Shown here in pieces: positions 2,279 through 15,293 of a DNA stretch of 64,000 nucleotides. How positions within the stretch are numbered: the stretch's first letter is position 1; each line of letters begins with the position of its first letter. A model generated the notes under the pieces. The model was not told the DNA's origin, searched no databases, and saw only the letters and a program-made list of their open reading frames with translations. Where the stretch lies: positions 1 through 64,000 of the forward strand of contig JANQSY010000135.1 in assembly GCA_028279065.1 (NCBI GenBank). Reading direction: 5' to 3'. A program made the position numbers and the translations under genes. The stretch is from Cytophagales bacterium (GTDB taxonomy: Bacteria > Bacteroidota > Bacteroidia > Cytophagales > CCMP332).

Positions 2279-2308
2279 AAAAAAACCCCTCAGCCGAAAC
2301 CAAGGGGT
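2279..2308 (-). terminator. Intrinsic terminator of the DUF4397 gene
   Basis: ACCCCT (2285-2290) pairs with AGGGGT (2303-2308); reading on the minus strand the stem is followed by seven T at 2279-2285. It lies 36 bp after the stop codon of the 2345-4042 gene. Between stop and stem there is also a small GGGGC-UUCG-GTCCC tetraloop hairpin at about 2318-2331. Confidence 0.75.
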
Positions 2309-2344
2309 CATCGGGACCGAAGCCCCTACCAAACCAAAGCAGTT

Positions 2345-4042
2345 CTAGTCTAGCTTCACAAATCTTTGGTTGATAGCTCCTTTTTCATTGGCCAATCTTA
2401 GGATATAAGAACCCTTTTGGAGTCCGGCCATTGGAACTTGAAGAGATTGTACACCGGTGTTCAGATCCAATGCTCTTTCCTCTACTTTGCGTCCGGTTAG
2501 ATCGAAGATCTCCATTTGAAGATCCACCCTGTCCATAACTTCCAGATCGATGTTCAGTTGATCGCTCACCGGATTCGGGTAAATATTGAAACTTTTCACT
2601 TCGTTGATCTCAAGTCCGGTAACAACCGGAAGTGCGATCAGGGATCCACCGCTTGGAAGAGCTACAAATAATCCGAAAGCATCCCCATTGCTGTTCTGGC
2701 TGGGATCTAGGAATCCGCTTGCTACTACTACAAGAGCGGAATCATCCAAACTCAATGTAGACAATGGGGCGCTGAAAGTTGCAACTAGGGTAGTTCCTGA
2801 TGCATCATAGATCTCAAGGGTAAGGTCGGCTGTGCCTACCTCAAGGTAGTCAGCATTGTACTCACCATAAGAAATATCATCCACAATGGTTCCAACTCCG
2901 ACTGCCACCACATCCACTGGTGGAGCATCGGTAGAACCATGCATTACCAGGATATCCGTATTTCCACTTTGAGAAGCTTCTTCTCTTCCTGTAGCGAAAA
3001 TGTTAAGTCCGAATGCAGGGCTTGGGTTGTAACCGGTTGCGCTTACGATTCCATTAGCCGTTACCACATACTTTTCGTTTGCTGCTAATACAAGGTCAAA
3101 GCTTGTGATGGTATCAGCTACACTCATACTGTTTGCTGGAGCTATACCGATATTGATTCCTACCTCAGCGGGAGCATCAATAAAAGGGGAAGCAGTTCTG
3201 AAATCGAAGTCATCGATCAGCATCCCACCGTTCAGGTAAATATCTACGGTTGAAGCTGCAGCATCTGCACTGTTGTGGATCACCTGAACTCTTGCCGTAG
3301 AACTTGGAAGCTCAATAAGATTTCCACCGCTAGGCAATGCCACCCAAAGACCAAAGGCCGGTCCGGATGAATTTTGAGATGGATCAAGGAATCCACTGGC
3401 TACTACGACCAGGGCTGAATCAGCCAAACCAAGGGTTTGTAGTGGAGCCTGGAACGAAGCTACAACCACAGACCCTGTGCTATCCGTGATATTCAGAGTG
3501 TAGTCAGCATTAGCTAATTCAAGGTATCCCTGGAAATCACCGTACTCAAGGTTATCGACTATGGTTCCAGCTCCGGGAACCTGAACATCCACTGCCGGGG
3601 CATCGGTTGAGCCATGGCATACCAGAACATCAGTCTCGCCAGCTTGATTTGAATTTTCACGGCCCATGGCGTAAACATCCAAGCCGAAAGCCGGAGACGG
3701 ATTGTAGCCAGTTGAAGAAACAATTCCGTTTGCAACAACAACGTAGGTTTCATTTGCCATAAGCATGACATCAAACCCTACTATGGTGTCATTTACGGAT
3801 GTACTGTTGGATGGAGCTATTCCGACCTTAAAGGTCACCCCAGCGGGAGCGTCTATAAAAGACGTAGCAGTCCTAAATGCAAAGTCGTCGAACAACAAGG
3901 CTGTATCCAGATACACGTCAACAAGAGAAGCTGCCGCATCGGCGCTGTTATGTATCACTTGCAATCGTGCCGTCTGCTGAGCCTGGGCGTTGATCCCCAA
4001 AAACATTGCGAAGGCCAATACTAATAGTGAATTTATCTTCAT
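2345..4042 (-). CDS. Tandem DUF4397 surface protein, T9SS type A tail
   Basis: A 565-residue secreted protein. Residues 1-21 are a signal peptide (LLVLAFAMFLGINAQAQ). Two DUF4397 domains follow in tandem, at about 25-240 and 250-465. Each starts ARLQVIHNSADAAAS or ARVQVIHNSADAAAS and contains the repeated signatures MHGSTDAPPVDV and DSALVVVASGFLDPSQNS. The two copies are strongly alike, which indicates internal duplication. The last 80 residues (FNIYPNPVSDQLNID to YILRLANEKG) form a type A T9SS sorting domain, so the product should cross the outer membrane through the type IX system and be surface-attached or released. DUF4397 proteins are extracellular and functionally unassigned. It is a single-gene unit with its own terminator. 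Confidence 0.9.
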   Translation of the reverse strand: MKINSLLVLAFAMFLGINAQAQQTARLQVIHNSADAAASLVDVYLDTALLFDDFAFRTATSFIDAPAGVTFKVGIAPSNSTSVNDTIVGFDVMLMANETYVVVANGIVSSTGYNPSPAFGLDVYAMGRENSNQAGETDVLVCHGSTDAPAVDVQVPGAGTIVDNLEYGDFQGYLELANADYTLNITDSTGSVVVASFQAPLQTLGLADSALVVVASGFLDPSQNSSGPAFGLWVALPSGGNLIELPSSTARVQVIHNSADAAASTVDIYLNGGMLIDDFDFRTASPFIDAPAEVGINIGIAPANSMSVADTITSFDLVLAANEKYVVTANGIVSATGYNPSPAFGLNIFATGREEASQSGNTDILVMHGSTDAPPVDVVAVGVGTIVDDISYGEYNADYLEVGTADLTLEIYDASGTTLVATFSAPLSTLSLDDSALVVVASGFLDPSQNSNGDAFGLFVALPSGGSLIALPVVTGLEINEVKSFNIYPNPVSDQLNIDLEVMDRVDLQMEIFDLTGRKVEERALDLNTGVQSLQVPMAGLQKGSYILRLANEKGAINQRFVKLD

Positions 4043-4170: not shown

Positions 4171-4911
4171 TCAAGAAATTGGGATAAGATCTTCCTCCCA
4201 TGTCTCGAGGGAGGAATCCTTCAGGTCGTGGACAATATTCTTAAGAGAGTTCACCGACTTTTGAGCCTCCCCCTTGGGATTTTCTATTGGATCCCAGTTT
4301 GGACTTCCCTCTCCATCATGGTTGACAATGATATGATCAAACAAATGCGCATAGCTCATTTCTTTGAATGCGCTCGAAGCCCGTACCTCAAGATCAGCCT
4401 TTATATCTACATCAATCCCGTCAAAGATCTTCTTTGCCCTCTGGAATTGCTTGCCTATCATTTCATTCCTGACCTCTAGCTCCAGATCCTTACTCTGGTC
4501 CTTTTTTATCTCCTTGATCTCCTCCCTCGAAAATGGGGAAATGAATACGCTCTTAATCCTTAGCCCCCAGCCTTCCTTGTTTTGGATCAACCAGGAAGCA
4601 ATGACCGGGTTCCCCTCGTATATGCCCCTTGTTTCATTAAGCCTTCGTAATTCTTCAAAAGGAACTCCAATGGTATCCCTCCTGACTTGGAAAGCCTTTA
4701 GAATGCCTTTTTCTTCCAATGCAAGGATCTCATCGCGGCTTCTGAAATGATAATCAACTCCATCTTCTTCTCCTTTCCTTGGAACTCGACTGTGGAATAC
4801 GGTCATTCCACCCGAACTGAACATATCAGGATCGCTTGCCTGACAAGCTCTCAATAATGGTGTTTTTCCTACACAGGAGGGTCCTGCGATTATCAATAGA
4901 TCTGCTTGCAT
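4171..4911 (-). CDS. Guanylate-kinase-like P-loop protein
   Basis: A 246-residue protein from the ATG at 4911. An ATG 18 bp further upstream lies inside a terminator stem and is rejected. The Walker A loop is GPSCVGKT at residues 10-17, where canonical guanylate kinase has GPSGxGKST. The GMP-binding block is retained (SRVPRKGEEDGVDYHF), but the downstream YGTS-type nucleotide motif is replaced by TIGVPFEEL. The C-terminal half diverges and is longer than the roughly 200 residues of Gmk, with a charged helical stretch. It is therefore more likely a paralogue acting on another nucleotide or substrate than the essential Gmk. Its start codon follows directly on the U-tract of the fasciclin gene's terminator. 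Confidence 0.65.
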   Translation of the reverse strand: MQADLLIIAGPSCVGKTPLLRACQASDPDMFSSGGMTVFHSRVPRKGEEDGVDYHFRSRDEILALEEKGILKAFQVRRDTIGVPFEELRRLNETRGIYEGNPVIASWLIQNKEGWGLRIKSVFISPFSREEIKEIKKDQSKDLELEVRNEMIGKQFQRAKKIFDGIDVDIKADLEVRASSAFKEMSYAHLFDHIIVNHDGEGSPNWDPIENPKGEAQKSVNSLKNIVHDLKDSSLETWEEDLIPIS

Positions 4912-4976: not shown

Positions 4977-5543
4977 CTATTCTTCCTGGGGCAAAATGAT
5001 CGCGTCCACCACGTGAACAATTCCATTTGATGCTCTTACCGATCCAAGGATCTTGGCTCCTCCTGCCCACACATCTTCCCCTTCAACCTTCATGGTTATA
5101 TTGCCCCCATCCGCTACCCAAAGTGATTGGCCATCTGTGAATTGATCCTTTGTAAAGACCGAGGTTGTAACGTGGTGCTTAAGTATTCCACTCAGGGTAC
5201 TTTGATTTTCTGGTTTTAGAAGGTTCTCCACCGTTCCTTCAGGAAGGGCTTTGAATGCGTCATCGACAGGTGCAAAAACCGTAAATGGCCCCGCATTTGT
5301 AAGTGAATTTGCAAGACCCGCTGCTTGCACGGCTTTTACAAGGTAGGTATGATCTGGAGATCCAAGGGCTACCTTTAGGATGTCCATTTGGGATTCATCA
5401 TCCTGAACAGCGGATTGGCCCGCACCTCCGGAGATCTCTTCAATTTCTCCTCCGGACGATTCGTTTCCTGAAGGGGCATTGCATGCGACAAAGGCAAAAA
5501 GGAATAACAAGGAAACTAGTAGGGGAAAGGCTTTATTCTTCAT
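4977..5543 (-). CDS. Fasciclin-domain lipoprotein
   Basis: About 188 residues from the ATG at 5543; the longer frame to 5597 lacks a signal at its N-terminus. A lipoprotein signal peptide (FPLLVSLLFLFAFVAC) puts the acylated Cys at about residue 21. After an acidic Gly/Ser linker there is a single fasciclin (FAS1) domain with the diagnostic TVFAPVDDAFKALPEGTVE and the second conserved strand GIVHVVDAIILPQE. FAS1 domains mediate cell-surface adhesion, and here the protein is probably anchored in the outer membrane. It is 23 bp before a strong terminator, so it is the last gene of its transcript. Confidence 0.88.
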   Translation of the reverse strand: MKNKAFPLLVSLLFLFAFVACNAPSGNESSGGEIEEISGGAGQSAVQDDESQMDILKVALGSPDHTYLVKAVQAAGLANSLTNAGPFTVFAPVDDAFKALPEGTVENLLKPENQSTLSGILKHHVTTSVFTKDQFTDGQSLWVADGGNITMKVEGEDVWAGGAKILGSVRASNGIVHVVDAIILPQEE

Positions 5544-7608: not shown

Positions 7609-10600
7609 ATGAAAAAACCTAGCTTGTGCTCGCTGGTAATGGCTTTTTTGCTATTGCCCTTTTCCATCTTCGCTTCCTCTGTCAAAATTGAAAACAGTTC
7701 TGGTTCTCCGATCTCCGGGGCAACGGTAAAGATCTATGATTCAGGGTGGCAGACCTTATCTGAATCCAATCCTGGTGAGTTTCCCTATCCTGCTGGGGTT
7801 TCACCAAATGTCACTGTAAGGGTTGACCTCCAAAACATGAGGTTTCAAAAATCGGGTGTATCCACATCCGGGGACCATACCATTTCCACAATAGCCGTTA
7901 ATACCCGCCTGTTGAGTTCAGGTGGGGCAGGATTAAGTGGAGGTACTGTAAAATCCCATAGAATGGGCTGGAATACTCACGGCTCCACCGATGCCAGCGG
8001 ATCGATTATACGAGAAATGCTTCCTGGAACCTATACATTCAGGATCGATTATGACAATGGAAGAGAGCAAAGAGGAGGGGTGGTCATTTCAGCAGGTGGA
8101 GGTAGCTCCCAGGAGGTCATTTTCAATACCATCAATGTTTCCACAAAGCTTATCAGTTCCGGTGGATCTGGATTGAACGGAGGAACTGTCAAATCCCATA
8201 AAGTGGGATGGAGAACCCATGGTATGACCAACCTATCGGGAGTTGTAGACCGTGAAATGCTTCCGGGCACATATACATTCCGCATGGATTATGAGAATGG
8301 AAGGCAACAGATCGGGGGGATAATGATCTCTTCCTCTAATGGATTTAACCAGGAAGTGGTTTTCAATACAGTTGGAGTGCAAATAAAGTTGGAGACCTCA
8401 GATAACCTAGCATTGGCGGGAGGGGTAGTAAAGTCACATAGAATAGGATGGAAGACCCATGGTCCCACAAGTAGTTCAGGGTTGGTAGAGAAAGAAATGC
8501 TTCCCGGTACATACACCTTCAGAATGGATTACCAGAATGGAAGGCAACAAATTGGAGGGGTCGAGATCTTCCAGAACCCCTCAGTTCAGAGCTTTGAATT
8601 CAATACCGTTACGGTAAACACCAAACTGATCTCATCGCTTGGTGCAGGTTTGGATGGGGGAACTCCTAAGTCGCATAGAATCGGATGGTATACTCATCCG
8701 GTTACAGTTAATGGTGAAAGTGTCAGGGAAATGCTTCCCGGTACCTACACCTTCAGAATGGATTACAATAACGGCAGGCAACAAATAGGCGGAATTCTTA
8801 TCCCTGCCTATGTCCCTTCAATCAATGTTGTATTCAATACGATTGGGGTCACCACGAGTCTTCATGCTTCTACCTCTGGAGGAGGTGCAGGACTTTCCGG
8901 AGCAACAGTGAAAACACATAGAATTGGCTGGAGAACGCACGGGCAAACGGATAATAATGGAGAGCAGTTCCAGGAGATGCTTCCCGGAACATATACCTTC
9001 AGGATGGATTATGAGAATGGCAGGCAGCAGATAGGTGGAATCGCCGTATCAAATAGCCCTTCCTCCCAAACTGTCCCTTTCACCGCAATGGATGTTCATA
9101 TCCATCTTCAAACATCTGATAATGCCGGGCTTGCGGGAGGAACTCCAAAAACCCATAGGATAGGCTGGAGAACTCAAGCTCAAACAGATGGCAATGGCGT
9201 AACAAGGGTGAACATGTTGCCAGGCACTTACACTTTCAGAATGGATTATAATCATGGAAGGGAGCAAAGGGGAGGTGTTAGCGTGTATGATGAATCCGGG
9301 GATGGAAGAAGAGATGTGTATTTCACTACCACTACCACCAATATCAGGGTGGAATATCAAACCGGAGATGGGATCGATCAGGCTGAAACCCGCCATCACA
9401 GGATCGGTTGGAGTCCAGTGCAATTAGCTGGTTGTGGTGATGCGATCAGAGAGTTACTGCCTGGAAATTACACTTTCAGGGTAAGGTATAATAATCAAAA
9501 TATGCAATTGGGTGGGGTAGGAGTTTCCGGATCAGATCAAACAGTATCCTTCACCTATAATGATCCGAATACTCCGAACGTCTGTAGCAGTGCAATTAGC
9601 TGCATTGAGGACACCATAAGGTACAAGGTTACTTCTGCCTTCAGGGAGAATGGCTCTTCTTCCGGAGCAGGTCACAGTCTTTGGATCCCCAACTTTTTCT
9701 ACTCTGGGCAGACCGCCAGGTTCAGCTTTGATGCCGATGCCCAAACCTATGGGTACCTGGATGTAGCGCTTGATGGTTCCGGAGCCCGACTTCATGGGGT
9801 CGCTAAAGTTTATACCGGGGGTGTTCCACCCGCAGGTACCGGCCAAAGGGATTTCACAGGTTCTTATTGGGTGATCGATATTCCGATGATTCCAAAACCT
9901 GGAGCCACACCAAAGATCGAACAAGGATCGGCCCAGCCCTTAGCTGTAACCGATCTCTGGAGGTACTTCGAGATTGTATTGAGGCCTAATCCAGGACAAA
10001 ATTTTCATATCACAGGCATCGATTGTCCAAAAGACTGCGCAAATCTTACCCAGATCACTGGCACAGGAAGCAATGACCTTGGGGTCCAAACCGGGTATAC
10101 TGCAAACGGAAAAAACCTGGGATATGGGCTCTCCACCTGGTTTGACTGGGATGCCTGGATAGATAAGGATGGCAACAACCATTGTTCAAATGGAACAAGG
10201 ACTCATTCAATAGGAAGATCCTACCATGGAGACATCAATGTGGATCTTGAGTTTGAGCCTTGTTTTGGGGATTGCCCTCCGGGGGGTATTCGCTACGCCA
10301 TGAGCAACTATAATGGTGGAAATGGGGACCACGGAATGTGGATGCCAAACTATTTCTCGAATGGGCAAACAGCCAGATGGAAATGGAAACAGGATGAGGC
10401 ATTTATAGATGTCTTTGATGATGGCACTGCCAGGGCATTTGGAATTGCCGAGGTTCAAACCGGTGGACCATTGGGCACAGAATTTTATTTTGATCTAAGC
10501 TTTGGTGCTCCCAATCCAAACACCGGGCCCAAGATCGAAAGGGCTAACATTCAACCTCAAGAATTAAGGGACACCTGGGAGTATTTCTTATTGGTAGAAG

Positions 10601-11640
10601 ATCAGGACTTCGAGATGTTCGAGTTGTTTGGGAACAGAGATGCAGACTTATCCAGAAGGCCTGCCGACGGTTCCAAAGGATTGCAAATTGGAGCTGCCGC
10701 GAATAATAAGGATGCAGATTTTGGAGCATCCACCTGGTTCTTCTATGATAAGTATGTCAATTATAGCCTGACTTCCACTTCGAGTAACCATGGAGACCTG
10801 AATGTGGACCTTGAGGCTGAATGTGATGACCGTCCCCATGGTAACTGTGTTGGAAATTCTATTGTCTCAGCTAACCAGGGGGTTCGGATAAATGGCTCAG
10901 CTGTTCCTCTTGACAGAAGCGATGTTACCCGAGCTCTTGGGGCTCCACAAGGGGGCGATGCAGTAGGATCATTCTATTCACTTGGAATGGGTGGTGACAT
11001 TGTGATACACTTTGGAGGACCGGTTGCCAATCTCAGTGGAAACGATATCCGTTTGACCGAAACCTCTTATGGGGATCCAAGCTGTAGTCAATACCCGGAG
11101 CATGCGGAGCTTTTTGCCTCTCAGGATGGTACAAACTGGACCTCTCTTGGAGTGAATTGCCTCGATGGGGAATATGATCTTGGCACCATGGAATGGGCTT
11201 TTTATTTCAAGGTGGTTGATGTTTCTCCATCAAACTATACAGGTGGAAATGGAGATGGATTTGACGTGGATGGAATTGAATGTCTGAATGGTCCCTATGT
11301 AGGTGTAAGTGAACCATCCTCTGTTAATAGAAACGGAAGCTTTGTTTTTGTACCAGACAGGCCCGTCCAAAATGTAGAATTGCTTGAAGGGGTCCAAAAT
11401 GTATCTACATACCCAAATCCATTCTCAAATACCATCAGTTTCTCATATGACCTGATCGGTAATTCAAAAGTTGAGATCAGCATCATGGATGTGCTGGGAA
11501 ATGAAGTTGACAGGATCATTCCTCCAGCTGGCACTTCTACTGCTGAATGGATACCCAGAGCAGGGATCGAGCCAGGTATTTACTTTTATGCAGTTGAAGC
11601 TGGAGAGCAGGTAGAAAAAGGTAAGATCATCAAGAAATAG
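7609..11640 (+). CDS. Giant secreted repeat protein, T9SS type A tail
   Basis: 1343 residues. There is a signal peptide (residues 1-22), then eight repeats of about 78 residues to about residue 650. The first repeat is divergent and the rest share the core KSHRIGWRTHG, MLPGTYTFRMDYENGRQQ and GG. Next are two related domains of about 190 residues, recognisable by HSLWIPNFFYSGQTARF and HGMWMPNYFSNGQTARW. A discoidin-like domain (ADLFASQDGTNW-type; here AELFASQDGTNWTSLG) precedes a type A sorting domain (YPNPFSNTISFSYD to KGKIIKK). The repeats look like small beta-sandwich (Ig/SdrD B-like) modules, which makes it a probable stalk or adhesin at the cell surface. It is monocistronic, with a terminator 20 bp downstream. 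I know no named family for the repeat. Confidence 0.9.
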   Translation: MKKPSLCSLVMAFLLLPFSIFASSVKIENSSGSPISGATVKIYDSGWQTLSESNPGEFPYPAGVSPNVTVRVDLQNMRFQKSGVSTSGDHTISTIAVNTRLLSSGGAGLSGGTVKSHRMGWNTHGSTDASGSIIREMLPGTYTFRIDYDNGREQRGGVVISAGGGSSQEVIFNTINVSTKLISSGGSGLNGGTVKSHKVGWRTHGMTNLSGVVDREMLPGTYTFRMDYENGRQQIGGIMISSSNGFNQEVVFNTVGVQIKLETSDNLALAGGVVKSHRIGWKTHGPTSSSGLVEKEMLPGTYTFRMDYQNGRQQIGGVEIFQNPSVQSFEFNTVTVNTKLISSLGAGLDGGTPKSHRIGWYTHPVTVNGESVREMLPGTYTFRMDYNNGRQQIGGILIPAYVPSINVVFNTIGVTTSLHASTSGGGAGLSGATVKTHRIGWRTHGQTDNNGEQFQEMLPGTYTFRMDYENGRQQIGGIAVSNSPSSQTVPFTAMDVHIHLQTSDNAGLAGGTPKTHRIGWRTQAQTDGNGVTRVNMLPGTYTFRMDYNHGREQRGGVSVYDESGDGRRDVYFTTTTTNIRVEYQTGDGIDQAETRHHRIGWSPVQLAGCGDAIRELLPGNYTFRVRYNNQNMQLGGVGVSGSDQTVSFTYNDPNTPNVCSSAISCIEDTIRYKVTSAFRENGSSSGAGHSLWIPNFFYSGQTARFSFDADAQTYGYLDVALDGSGARLHGVAKVYTGGVPPAGTGQRDFTGSYWVIDIPMIPKPGATPKIEQGSAQPLAVTDLWRYFEIVLRPNPGQNFHITGIDCPKDCANLTQITGTGSNDLGVQTGYTANGKNLGYGLSTWFDWDAWIDKDGNNHCSNGTRTHSIGRSYHGDINVDLEFEPCFGDCPPGGIRYAMSNYNGGNGDHGMWMPNYFSNGQTARWKWKQDEAFIDVFDDGTARAFGIAEVQTGGPLGTEFYFDLSFGAPNPNTGPKIERANIQPQELRDTWEYFLLVEDQDFEMFELFGNRDADLSRRPADGSKGLQIGAAANNKDADFGASTWFFYDKYVNYSLTSTSSNHGDLNVDLEAECDDRPHGNCVGNSIVSANQGVRINGSAVPLDRSDVTRALGAPQGGDAVGSFYSLGMGGDIVIHFGGPVANLSGNDIRLTETSYGDPSCSQYPEHAELFASQDGTNWTSLGVNCLDGEYDLGTMEWAFYFKVVDVSPSNYTGGNGDGFDVDGIECLNGPYVGVSEPSSVNRNGSFVFVPDRPVQNVELLEGVQNVSTYPNPFSNTISFSYDLIGNSKVEISIMDVLGNEVDRIIPPAGTSTAEWIPRAGIEPGIYFYAVEAGEQVEKGKIIKK

Positions 11641-11694: not shown

Positions 11695-11833
11695 AGGTAT
11701 CTATACCTAATTACACGGAAGCGTGAATGGTACAAATATTTATACGCTAAAAATTTGGATGAGTGGTATAATGGTTAGAATTTTAATTTATGAAAGGACA
11801 TTTCACATTTAAAAAGACTGGAGGCATTGGATT

Positions 11834-12268
11834 TCAGTCCTCGGTAAGCGGCCCCTGGACATTGAAATCATTACAGTTTAATAAGCTCTTATCTTCAGGC
11901 AAAAGTGCGGTCATTTCGAAAGCGGGATTCTCGCCCACGATTAAGCCAAATGCCTGATTGTGTTTTTGATAGTCTTTAAATTCTTGAAGATTTCTCTTGT
12001 CATAAGATAAATCATTGATTTTTATCGATACTCTATTCTCGCTATTTAATATTTCTAGCGCCAACTTATCAGAAGAGTCTAACCAAAGCACCAACATGGG
12101 GTTATTTCCTCTGTTTAGCTTTAATAGATCAAAATAACTCTCAGTACCCTCCATTCCGTCAAATCCTAATTTTACTATTGTAGGCGAATTTTCTTTAATC
12201 TGATGAAACCAAATTTCAGAGGCATTATTAAGTGATTCTTCAACGCTATTAATATCAATATTTCTCAT
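11834..12268 (-). CDS. Hypothetical soluble protein (immunity-protein-like context)
   Basis: 144 residues, acidic, with no signal peptide or membrane segment. The composition and short alpha/beta pattern (EESLNNASEIWFHQIKEN; PMLVLWLDSSDKLALEIL; FGLIVGENPAFEMTALLP) fit a small single-domain cytoplasmic protein. I do not recognise it. Single, isolated, rapidly evolving proteins of this size are often immunity proteins or cargo genes in Bacteroidota variable regions, but nothing here proves that. No toxin gene adjoins it. Codon use looks AT-richer than in the flanking core genes. Confidence 0.6.
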   Translation of the reverse strand: MRNIDINSVEESLNNASEIWFHQIKENSPTIVKLGFDGMEGTESYFDLLKLNRGNNPMLVLWLDSSDKLALEILNSENRVSIKINDLSYDKRNLQEFKDYQKHNQAFGLIVGENPAFEMTALLPEDKSLLNCNDFNVQGPLTED

Positions 12269-12420
12269 AGCTAGGTTTTAGAAGGGTCAATCGTTGGGGC
12301 CAAAAAGAGCGCTTTTAAAAGCTGATTGTCAATCCTCATTTTTAGGGATTTTCAGTGCATTAAAGACTTCTTCCGCGGCAGCTTAGTACCTTTAAGGAAA
12401 ATACTGGCGTTAGCCGTTCT

Positions 12421-13013: not shown

Positions 13014-13139
13014 AATCATTATGTGATTCGCATTTCCAATATCCCCATAAATGGGGATTGATGGCTAAATGGTCAAACAGTTTCTTTATGCCAATTAGGT
13101 TTGGACATGCTAAATTCTTTAGTATACTAGCTATTTTAG

Positions 13140-13170
13140 TTTTATAAATAGAAATTTGTAACTATTTTTG
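13140..13170 (+). promoter_or_regulatory. Bacteroidota-type promoter of the Panacea module
   Basis: A -7 element TATTTTTG at 13163-13170 matches TAnnTTTG exactly. Nineteen bases upstream lies TTTT (13140-13143), one base from the TTTG -33 element. Transcription would start about 13176, giving a leader of fewer than 20 nt before the ATG at 13194. Confidence 0.5.
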
Positions 13171-13193: not shown

Positions 13194-13757
13194 ATGCTTG
13201 GCAAGAAAAACGATATTACTGAGGACAAAAAAACTGTTGAGCTCTTCCTTCTAATTGCTGAGAAACTCAAGTCAAAACCTAACTATGGGGCAACGCTTCA
13301 TAATAAGGCATTGTTCTTTGTGGATTACTTTTCTTACCTGGACACTGGAAAGAAAATTTCGAAGTTCAAGTATGTCAAACAGGACTATGGGCCAACACCC
13401 AAACCAAATCAAATTCTTCCTCTAAGAGAAAACCTAATCTCTAATGGCGACCTTGAGATGGATAAAAAACCATTTTGGGGGCAGTTACAACAGCGATATG
13501 TGCCAAAAAGAGATGTGGACGACACAATATTCACAGAAGGAGAACTGGATTTAATTGATGAAGTTATCAATGGTATTTCGGATCTGAATGGAACCGAAAT
13601 TAGTGACATGTCACATCAACTTCTTTGTTGGAAAATACCCAAATACAAAGAGGAAATTCCAGAACATACTTTTCTGCTATCTGAGCGTGAGCCAACCGAG
13701 AAAGAAATTAATTGGGGACTGAAAATGGCGCGCACTCATGAATTGGGCAATAGTTAG
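13194..13757 (+). CDS. Panacea-domain (DUF4065/SocA-like) antitoxin
   Basis: 187 residues of the Panacea fold. The order is an N-terminal helix VELFLLIAEKLKSKPNYGAT, then LHNKALFFVDYFSY (the K-L/N-K-L-L-Y-like helix), then the diagnostic YVKQDYGPTPKPNQIL segment, and a C-terminal helix FTEGELDLIDEVINGISD with SDMSHQLLCWK. Established knowledge: Panacea/SocA-like proteins act as antitoxins, or as proteolytic adaptors, paired with many unrelated toxins. The downstream gene overlaps by 20 bp, the classic arrangement of a two-gene module. The start ATG is 5 bp after the tandem repeats in the promoter. I am confident about the domain; the toxin-antitoxin role is inferred from context. Confidence 0.85.
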   Translation: MLGKKNDITEDKKTVELFLLIAEKLKSKPNYGATLHNKALFFVDYFSYLDTGKKISKFKYVKQDYGPTPKPNQILPLRENLISNGDLEMDKKPFWGQLQQRYVPKRDVDDTIFTEGELDLIDEVINGISDLNGTEISDMSHQLLCWKIPKYKEEIPEHTFLLSEREPTEKEINWGLKMARTHELGNS

Positions 13758-13998
13758 AGAAAAATCATTCGATAATAAAGTTCAGCAATATTGCCATTCA
13801 TTCGAAAGAATGCATGATTTTGATTTGGCAATTGATGAAGCCTTGTCAAGAAAACCAAAAGAATTTCATCACCTATACGACCACCATTATTTGTGGGTCA
13901 CGGAGAAAATAATCAAGGGACTGCCAGAATTTAAAATCTATTACCAGATTGATGAGGAAAACAGAAAAGTCTTATTGATTGAAATTGAAGAAGCCTGA
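13738..13998 (+). CDS. Small toxin candidate, ParE/RelE-like C-terminus
   Basis: 86 residues starting 20 bp inside the Panacea gene, so probably translated by coupling. The N-terminal half is helical and acidic (FERMHDFDLAIDEALSRKP). The second half (LWVTEKIIKGLPEFKIYYQI, then DEENRKVLLIEIEEA) follows the pattern of the last three beta strands of ParE/RelE-type toxins, in which a Gly-Leu-Pro turn precedes a Y-x-I strand and a final hydrophobic strand. The match is weak and the domain is short, so the fold is a guess. What is firm is the position: a small gene overlapping the 3' end of an antitoxin-family gene. A role as the cognate toxin is inferred. Confidence 0.6.
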   Translation: MNWAIVREKSFDNKVQQYCHSFERMHDFDLAIDEALSRKPKEFHHLYDHHYLWVTEKIIKGLPEFKIYYQIDEENRKVLLIEIEEA

Positions 13999-14039
13999 CC
14001 CCTTGCAATGTTAGCTAGGAGGAAAGAGTATTTCAGTGG

Positions 14040-15011
14040 TTAAGGGTCTACGATTGGCGCTTCTATTTTGCTAGTTAATTGAGAGTAGGTCAATTTTGCT
14101 GAATCAAATCTTCTAACTGTATCCCCAAACCGTTTCTCAGTTGTAATGTCCTTGGTATTATAGCGATAAGCGAATTCATCACAATAGCTCTGCAAATGCT
14201 GAGGGGAAACGTAATGGAATGTTCCAATTACTCCACGCTTCAACAAAGACCAAAATCCTTCTACTGAATTTGTGTGAGCTACCCCATCAACATATTGACC
14301 TGACGAGTGCTTGACAATTTTGTGCGCATGGGTCCTCTTTAGCTGATTATAGGCAGCAAATTCATCCGTTACCACAAGGGCGTTTTTATCAATTCGATCC
14401 CGAAGTATGGGTAATAGAGTGTTGGCAGTAGTATTTGGAACAACCAGGGCTTCTATCTTTTTTCCTCGTTGCAACAATCCCAATACAGGCCTTTTTGATG
14501 CAGTCCCACGGCCCTTAACCTTTGTTTGGCGTTTATTTCTATGCTTGTTGCTTTCACGTCCTCCAAAATACGATTCATCTGCCTCTACCATTCCAGTAAG
14601 AAGTTCGGGCGCTGTATCCTTTAGCATTGCCCTTAGTTTATGGTTGATAAGCCAGGCTGTTTTCTGACTTGTTCCTATTCTTTCACCAAGCTCAACAGAA
14701 CTGATCCCTTTCTTGCTAACAGAAAGCTCGTACGCCGCTTGCAGCCATTTCTTTAGTTCAACCTTGCTACCCTGAAAGATGCTTCCAGTTCTAACAGTAA
14801 AGGGTAGGTCACACCCTTTTTCTGAGCAGCGATAAGAAGGAATGTCCTTGAATCTTCCACGAGGCTTGACCTTGTATGGATCTTTCACGGACCCACAATG
14901 AGGACAAGCCTTTCCATTCGGCCAGCGAAGCGATTCTAAAAACTCGTAGCAGGCCTTTTCATCCCTGAAATGCTCGTGGAATTCTGTTATCGTTTTGAAG
15001 TCGAAATCCAT
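14040..15011 (-). CDS. IS1595-family transposase (ISXO2-like DDE)
   Basis: 323 residues with the complete IS1595 architecture. There is an N-terminal zinc ribbon (CPHCGSV and CSEKGCD, residues about 36-70), an HTH-like linker (LSVSKKGISSVELGERIGTS) and a catalytic core with EADESYFGG (first Asp), VVTDEFAAY (second Asp) and HTNSVEGFWSLLKRG (third acidic/Asn site), closing with a conserved FAYRYN. The frame is intact and full length, so it may be active. I could not find terminal inverted repeats on either side. It faces the small gene at 15090 across a 28-bp near-palindrome, so it looks like a regulated divergent pair as much as an ordinary insertion sequence. Confidence 0.88.
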   Translation of the reverse strand: MDFDFKTITEFHEHFRDEKACYEFLESLRWPNGKACPHCGSVKDPYKVKPRGRFKDIPSYRCSEKGCDLPFTVRTGSIFQGSKVELKKWLQAAYELSVSKKGISSVELGERIGTSQKTAWLINHKLRAMLKDTAPELLTGMVEADESYFGGRESNKHRNKRQTKVKGRGTASKRPVLGLLQRGKKIEALVVPNTTANTLLPILRDRIDKNALVVTDEFAAYNQLKRTHAHKIVKHSSGQYVDGVAHTNSVEGFWSLLKRGVIGTFHYVSPQHLQSYCDEFAYRYNTKDITTEKRFGDTVRRFDSAKLTYSQLTSKIEAPIVDP

Positions 15012-15039
15012 TTTATAATGTTAGATGTACAAATATATT

Positions 15040-15067
15040 CAAAATACTTGTATATACAAATATTTTG
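15040..15067. promoter_or_regulatory. 28-bp near-perfect palindrome between divergent genes
   Basis: CAAAATA (15040-15046) and TATTTTG (15061-15067) flank a central TTGTATATACAA (15048-15059, itself palindromic). Only one symmetric position mismatches, so 26 of 28 bases fit dyad symmetry. The site is 28 bp upstream of the transposase start (15011) and 22 bp upstream of the small gene start (15090), where a shared operator would sit. Related half-sites (TGTACAAATAT at 15027, TTGTATATTTGATC at 15075) flank it. Confidence 0.55.
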
Positions 15068-15089
15068 ATAGTAGTTGTATATTTGATCT

Positions 15090-15293
15090 ATGGTTACTTA
15101 TGAAGAAGGCAAAAAGCACAGGCATACCATCGTCCTTTTGAAGGGTGATTCTGTTATTGCCACCTTTGGCAACCTAAAAAAGTTAACGGAATACTTGTCA
15201 GATCAAGATATTCCAAGCTATTGGACGCTCGCAAGAAAAGACTTCCCCTTAGAGTTTGGAGAGTACAAAGTATTTAAGGTCAAGCATCATTAA
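15090..15293 (+). CDS. Small HTH-like protein divergent from transposase
   Basis: 67 residues. The second half, FGNLKKLTEYLSDQDIPSYW followed by TLARKDFPLEFGEYKVFKV, has the shape of a short HTH-like module: a helix beginning NLKKL, a second helix with S-Y-x-T-L-x-R-K, then a Gly-Tyr-x-V strand pair. Short Bacteroidota and phage proteins of this sort (NLKKL...FP..Y.GY.I) are common and probably bind DNA, but this is from memory. It diverges from the IS1595 transposase with the palindrome between them, so it may be its repressor or activator. A strong terminator follows 61 bp later. Confidence 0.6.
   Translation: MVTYEEGKKHRHTIVLLKGDSVIATFGNLKKLTEYLSDQDIPSYWTLARKDFPLEFGEYKVFKVKHH

Follow-up and report, generated by a model that had tools for sequence, protein, structure and literature searches.

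In a Cytophagales stretch of DNA of 64,000 nucleotides (hereafter the window) we identified two overlapping genes, panA and panT, that quite probably form a type II toxin-antitoxin (TA) operon of the PanAT kind, in which a standalone Panacea antitoxin would directly neutralize a putative acidic toxin of predicted RelE/ParE fold, one that more probably binds a protein than cleaves mRNA (Table 1).

Table 1. Features of the panA-panT locus; positions are those of the window
Feature	Position	Strand	Description	Evidence
TATTTTTG	13163..13170	+	fits TAnnTTTG, the -7 element of Bacteroidota; just 5' of the panA start	weak
panA	13194..13757	+	standalone Panacea (SocA-like, PF13274) antitoxin, 187 aa	Pfam, AF2
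C-terminal helix of the antitoxin	13695..13757	+	past the Panacea core (~residues 168-187), candidate toxin-clamping element	AF2, alignment
panA 3' end/panT 5' end overlap	13738..13757	+	20 bp	sequence
panT	13738..13998	+	86-aa RelE/ParE-fold toxin candidate, pI 5.6	AF2, Foldseek, homologues L003/L023/L026

The antitoxin gene and its overlapping partner

The initial annotation had described a Panacea protein overlapped over 20 bp by a second ORF without a clear family, and all of these claims stood. Both reading frames are present exactly as given, and the first product matches PF13274 over residues 37-147 (E = 2.5e-14) with 54.6 bits against the Pfam gathering score of 25.7; a whole-genome Panacea search recovered it with 55.4 bits. 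The GP(V) signature motif of the domain is present as GPT at positions 66-68, its GP being invariant across 18 aligned Panacea sequences, and the conserved core residues H141 and W146 are both invariant in the same alignment. Beyond Panacea, Pfam and PADLOC searches recovered no HTH, zinc or other domain in this protein. Its AF2 model has a pLDDT of 90.6, and a Foldseek search with this model found no Panacea structure and only weak winged-helix matches. The tail of the antitoxin (PTEKEINWGLKMA) forms a helix in the model (DSSP residues 169-185) of lower confidence, with pLDDT values of 68-79 per block, and the span coding for it takes in the overlap with panT. Most standalone PanAs (P0009, L026, L052, L056 and P0004) possess a similar C-terminal tail, while those with an HTH lack it; the helix is a candidate for an element clamping the toxin. 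Upstream of panA, TATTTTTG has no clear -33 partner. TAnnTTTG is the consensus of the Bacteroidota -7 element, and its matches number two in the 190-bp region against 0.3 expected, a weak signal.

The 86-aa frame resembles the long genes of the window in codon usage (0.155 bits per codon versus about -0.03 for the other forward frames). Among 5000 Markov resamples, 23 contained an ORF of 86 aa or more with its start close to the panA stop. As homologues elsewhere hold the same gene position, this ORF is a real gene. The overlap likely couples translation of panA and panT, which would ensure that antitoxin is always made; the corresponding genes overlap by 47 bp in a Flavobacteriales locus (L003) and abut in a viral one (L026). 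No family in Pfam (PF05016 included), NCBIfam or PADLOC and no sequence relative in the PDB was recovered for the partner, and a search of PHROGs gave one weak match of 19 residues to phrog_13019 (E = 0.0017), a family without assigned function. The models of the BECR toxin families matched neither it nor its homologues P0007, L023 and L026 at E-values up to 1. It likewise shows no significant sequence similarity to E. coli RelE or to the partner of an HTH-Panacea protein (L006), and searches of plasmids, phages and viral contigs with the protein returned nothing.

Predicted fold and putative mode of action of the partner

Modeling of the 86-aa protein alone, one of the checks proposed in the initial annotation, yielded a RelE/ParE fold with a mean pLDDT of 88.8 and a pTM of 0.79, this AF2 model resting on an alignment of four sequences. 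Its secondary structure elements (E4-7, H9-21, H25-38, E44-47, E50-54, E65-72 and E77-85) follow the beta-alpha-alpha-beta-beta-beta-beta order expected for the RelE/ParE (BECR) fold. In a Foldseek search against the PDB the first 29 places were all taken by RelE/HigB/YoeB/YafQ/PfiT-type toxins (prob 0.97-1.00), among them Mycobacterium tuberculosis RelE2 (PDB: 3g5o; TMq 0.74, TMt 0.78, prob 1.00). None of the E-values falls below 0.001 (range 1e-3 to 5e-2); such modest values are expected of a short chain, and it is the consistency of the matches that constitutes the argument. The model hence predicts the full fold over the whole chain, such that the RelE/ParE likeness noted earlier stands, and its restriction to a weak end of the protein does not. 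Similarly, the earlier suggestion of a new toxin type holds for the sequence family, which is unnamed, and fails for the fold, which is predicted to be the common RelE/ParE one, ParE-type partners of Panacea antitoxins having already been published (PMC8832971). The model thus points to a known fold, not a new one, that is carried by a divergent sequence family.

The chain terminates directly past its last beta strand, and the gene of an IS1595-type transposase (14040-15011) has its end 42 bp past the panT stop, with an 8-bp direct repeat, AATGTTAG, at 14007-14014 and 15017-15024. These features would suit truncation of the toxin by the inserted transposase gene; however, the panT stop lies upstream of the repeat, terminal inverted repeats around the transposase gene were not found in the window, and the 87-aa Panacea partner of a Helicobacter canis prophage, judged from its sequence, also ends directly after the last strand-like segment. 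We accordingly regard such a truncation as highly improbable.

RelE-type RNases are basic, and their catalytic residues (Arg/Lys/Tyr) lie in the sheet and in a C-terminal stretch. The 86-aa protein is acidic, and in a sequence alignment, which maps residues between very distant proteins in place of a superposition, it ends where E. coli K-12 RelE goes on with VGKRERSEVY, leaving the basic catalytic stretch absent. ParE toxins, which have the fold in common with RelE, are gyrase inhibitors without the RNase residues (PMC11980606). Because the partner is acidic and without the RelE C-terminal stretch, and ParE lacks the RNase residues, these sequence features lead us to rate, with moderate confidence, a protein-binding (ParE-like) mode above RNA cleavage. 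The partner might instead be a ribosome-dependent RelE/HigB-type mRNase with unusual residues, making the pair a conventional mRNA interferase TA of divergent sequence, as its nearest solved folds are mostly RelE/HigB/YoeB RNases, 11 of the 13 BECR toxin families in Pfam act as RNases (PMC11980606) and RelE-like proteins regularly lie downstream of HTH-Panacea antitoxins. Nevertheless, its acidity and the absence from the aligned C-terminus of the stretch holding the late catalytic residues of RelE argue against this, as do the relatives, which have K, R, I or Q at the basic position of the PEFKIYYQI strand and share no invariant basic or His residue in the sheet; we consider an mRNase unlikely. 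Taken jointly, a ParE-like target would be the leading candidate, though short of an even chance, a target of another kind comes next, and RNA last.

In the protein-binding mechanism that we favor, the antitoxin, encoded first, would bind the 86-aa partner directly and block it, perhaps helped by its C-terminal helix. We infer direct binding because standalone Panacea domains neutralize toxins through direct contact in published systems (PMC10440598); in other PanAs added elements can do the neutralizing, and Panacea has been suggested to be a sensor (PMC10440598). The domain would here act as the neutralizer and possibly also as a sensor releasing the toxin, for instance on phage infection, and the freed partner would most likely bind a protein target and so halt growth, as ParE does with DNA gyrase. 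Toxicity of the partner cannot be assumed, since eight PanTs (Kurata 2022, PMC8832971) and ten systems (NetFlax, PMC10440598) were non-toxic in E. coli.

Recurrence of the pair and kinds of Panacea partner

A search with the antitoxin recovered a locus of the Flavobacteriales MAG NORP157 (L003, the same contig as NVRW01000041.1), in which a standalone Panacea gene is followed by an overlapping gene whose 116-aa product aligns to the 86-aa protein (BLASTP E = 4e-7). In an IMG/VR viral contig (L026) a 91-aa partner is encoded directly downstream of a standalone Panacea gene. Smith-Waterman comparisons of the 86-aa protein gave z-scores of 9.1 (L003), 9.9 (L026) and 11.5 (L023), with none of 500 shuffles as good in each case. 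Co-occurrence in other genomes, which the initial annotation had proposed as a check, is hence found in two or more genomes or contigs that are unrelated (L003 and L026), the exception being L023. When 395 genomes of the class were searched with a profile of the toxin, three credible members emerged (window, L003 and L023), two of which (window and L003) adjoin Panacea, a pairing count that is weaker than an independent test as the profile was built from the window and L003. The third is an orphan homologue (L023/L080, G472:C322, 2132-2482) with no Panacea or other evident antitoxin within ~6 kb; it is the main counter-example to the pairing and odd for a potent toxin.

The three-member toxin alignment recovered nothing from the genome contigs, a second genome scan with the antitoxin alignment gave only the known NORP157 contig, and a further search of 396 genomes of the phylum with the toxin profile yielded one chance match only. 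We rejected L101 as a chance match sitting in a 530-aa membrane-protein-like frame, and likewise the profile matches L024 and L025, whose matched positions showed no small ORF resembling a toxin.

The orphan, the rarity of the family and the catalytic features missing from the alignment could together indicate a decayed, non-toxic RelE-fold protein or a Panacea co-regulator, in a pair no longer working as a TA. Against this, the open frames and operon position have been kept across lineages at only 22-31% identity, which argues for selection on the pair, and several standalone PanAs have partners of other sequences that are alike in size and acidity. Decay appears to us more unlikely still than an mRNase. 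The pair is accessory and was probably acquired, since GC at third positions is 0.38 and 0.35 for its two genes versus 0.40-0.53 for the long genes of the window, and a Panacea gene is absent from genomes of the same genus (G641) and the same family (G642).

The Panacea loci that we fetched display three common architectures: 1) a toxin-like gene 5' of that for an MqsA-like Panacea protein of ~330 aa; 2) an HTH-Panacea protein of ~267 aa with a downstream RelE-like protein of ~114-129 aa; 3) a standalone Panacea protein of ~167-203 aa with a short downstream partner, mostly of ~86-126 aa. Like the window protein, the short partners have acidic to neutral pI values (L003, L052 and L056, 4.9; L019, 5.0; L027, 6.3; L026, 6.6), versus 8.8 for the HTH-Panacea partner tested (L006) and 9.7 for E. 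coli RelE. An exception is the partner of a standalone Panacea in phage vir080 (L018), which is basic (pI 9.2) and aligns with the RelE-like set. We did not accept the L052 and L056 partners as proven relatives of the window protein, their similarity being confined to the beta hairpin (hhalign P 0.09 and 0.014), nor those of L019 and L027, whose sequence similarity is not significant. With the kinship of these four not established, the association of standalone Panacea with short acidic RelE-fold partners and of HTH-Panacea with basic RNase-like ones appears to be a pattern rather than a proven family. A more tentative reading, less probable than not, would pair standalone Panacea with a separate and undescribed class of RelE-fold toxins, short, acidic, no longer able to cleave RNA and directed at a protein target; these would be spread over Bacteroidota, phages and prophages, with HTH-Panacea keeping the classic basic RNase type.

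Standalone Panacea genes with small overlapping downstream partners also occur in L018 (Caudoviricetes sp. vir080, Methanobacteriales host; 1605-2490) and L019 (the Helicobacter canis prophage; 2378-3162), records in which the Panacea genes are annotated only as hypothetical.

Several observations concern the neighborhood of the pair. Elements of 59 bp (12283-12341) and 51 bp (11734-11784) are 95% and 82% identical, respectively, to positions 5085-5143 and 4495-4545 of a contig of the same-genus genome (L085, G641:C430), and flank a 144-aa minus-strand ORF in the window and an unrelated 123-aa ORF in G641; the same flanks around a different gene look like cassette-like exchange. Paralogues of the 144-aa gene (11834-12268 in the window; 3670-4107 in L086, G000:C131) lie near IS1595-type transposase genes on both of these contigs, that of L086 being at 2308-3222. 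Just upstream of this region is encoded a 1343-aa protein (7609-11640) whose repeats (KSHRIGW...MLPGTYTFRMDY) are numerous and alike and whose C-terminus is sorting-like. A palindromic 24-mer, CAATCCCCATTTATGGGGATATTG, lies between genes at 13037-13060 on the minus strand; its shortened form is found at 14 places in the genome with at most one mismatch, versus one for the reversed control, and it makes up a small repeat family. A 29-bp inverted repeat without a spacer (15025-15082; 79% complementary), possibly a shared operator, separates the divergent transposase gene from a 67-aa ORF at 15090.

Relationship to known systems

With the PanAT systems, which have Panacea/DUF4065 antitoxins (Kurata 2022, PMC8832971; NetFlax 2023, PMC10440598), the pair shares a standalone Panacea antitoxin, an adjacent small partner and an antitoxin-first order; it differs in that the sequence family of its partner lies outside Pfam, NCBIfam and PADLOC, although PMC8832971 may already include this family among its 41 PanT clusters left unassigned. 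Of the folds in the Panacea-centered NetFlax network, RelE/ParE is one of the commonest (PMC10440598). To the RelE/ParE (BECR) superfamily of 13 Pfam families (PMC11980606) the partner is similar in size and predicted fold (Foldseek prob 1.00 to RelE/HigB/YoeB/PfiT), but it is acidic, lacks a RelE-like basic C-terminus and matches no superfamily model, and its antitoxin is Panacea instead of an RHH, Phd or HTH type. The pairs of HTH-Panacea and 114-aa RelE-like proteins (L006, L030 and L033) share the gene order, the Panacea domain and a RelE-like downstream partner, whereas their antitoxins have an N-terminal HTH and no extra C-terminal helix, and the L006 partner is basic with a charged tail. 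The type VI SocAB system of Caulobacter (cited in PMC8832971 and PMC12795458), set beside the pair by description, also has a Panacea-domain antitoxin (SocA). Its SocB attaches to the sliding clamp and is broken down through ClpXP, which the other PanAs tested did not require (PMC8832971). A SocB-like clamp-binding mode for the 86-aa partner was considered and found no support.

The panA-panT pair is probably functional; the pairing of Panacea with ParE is known, and what is new is a partner sequence family outside the Pfam BECR families. A fold is thus assigned to an otherwise unclassified Panacea partner, and a testable split emerges between HTH-Panacea with basic RNase-like toxins and standalone Panacea with short acidic RelE-fold proteins. 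Should the acidic partners prove toxic, they would constitute a toxin family of the BECR fold additional to the 13 that Pfam lists.
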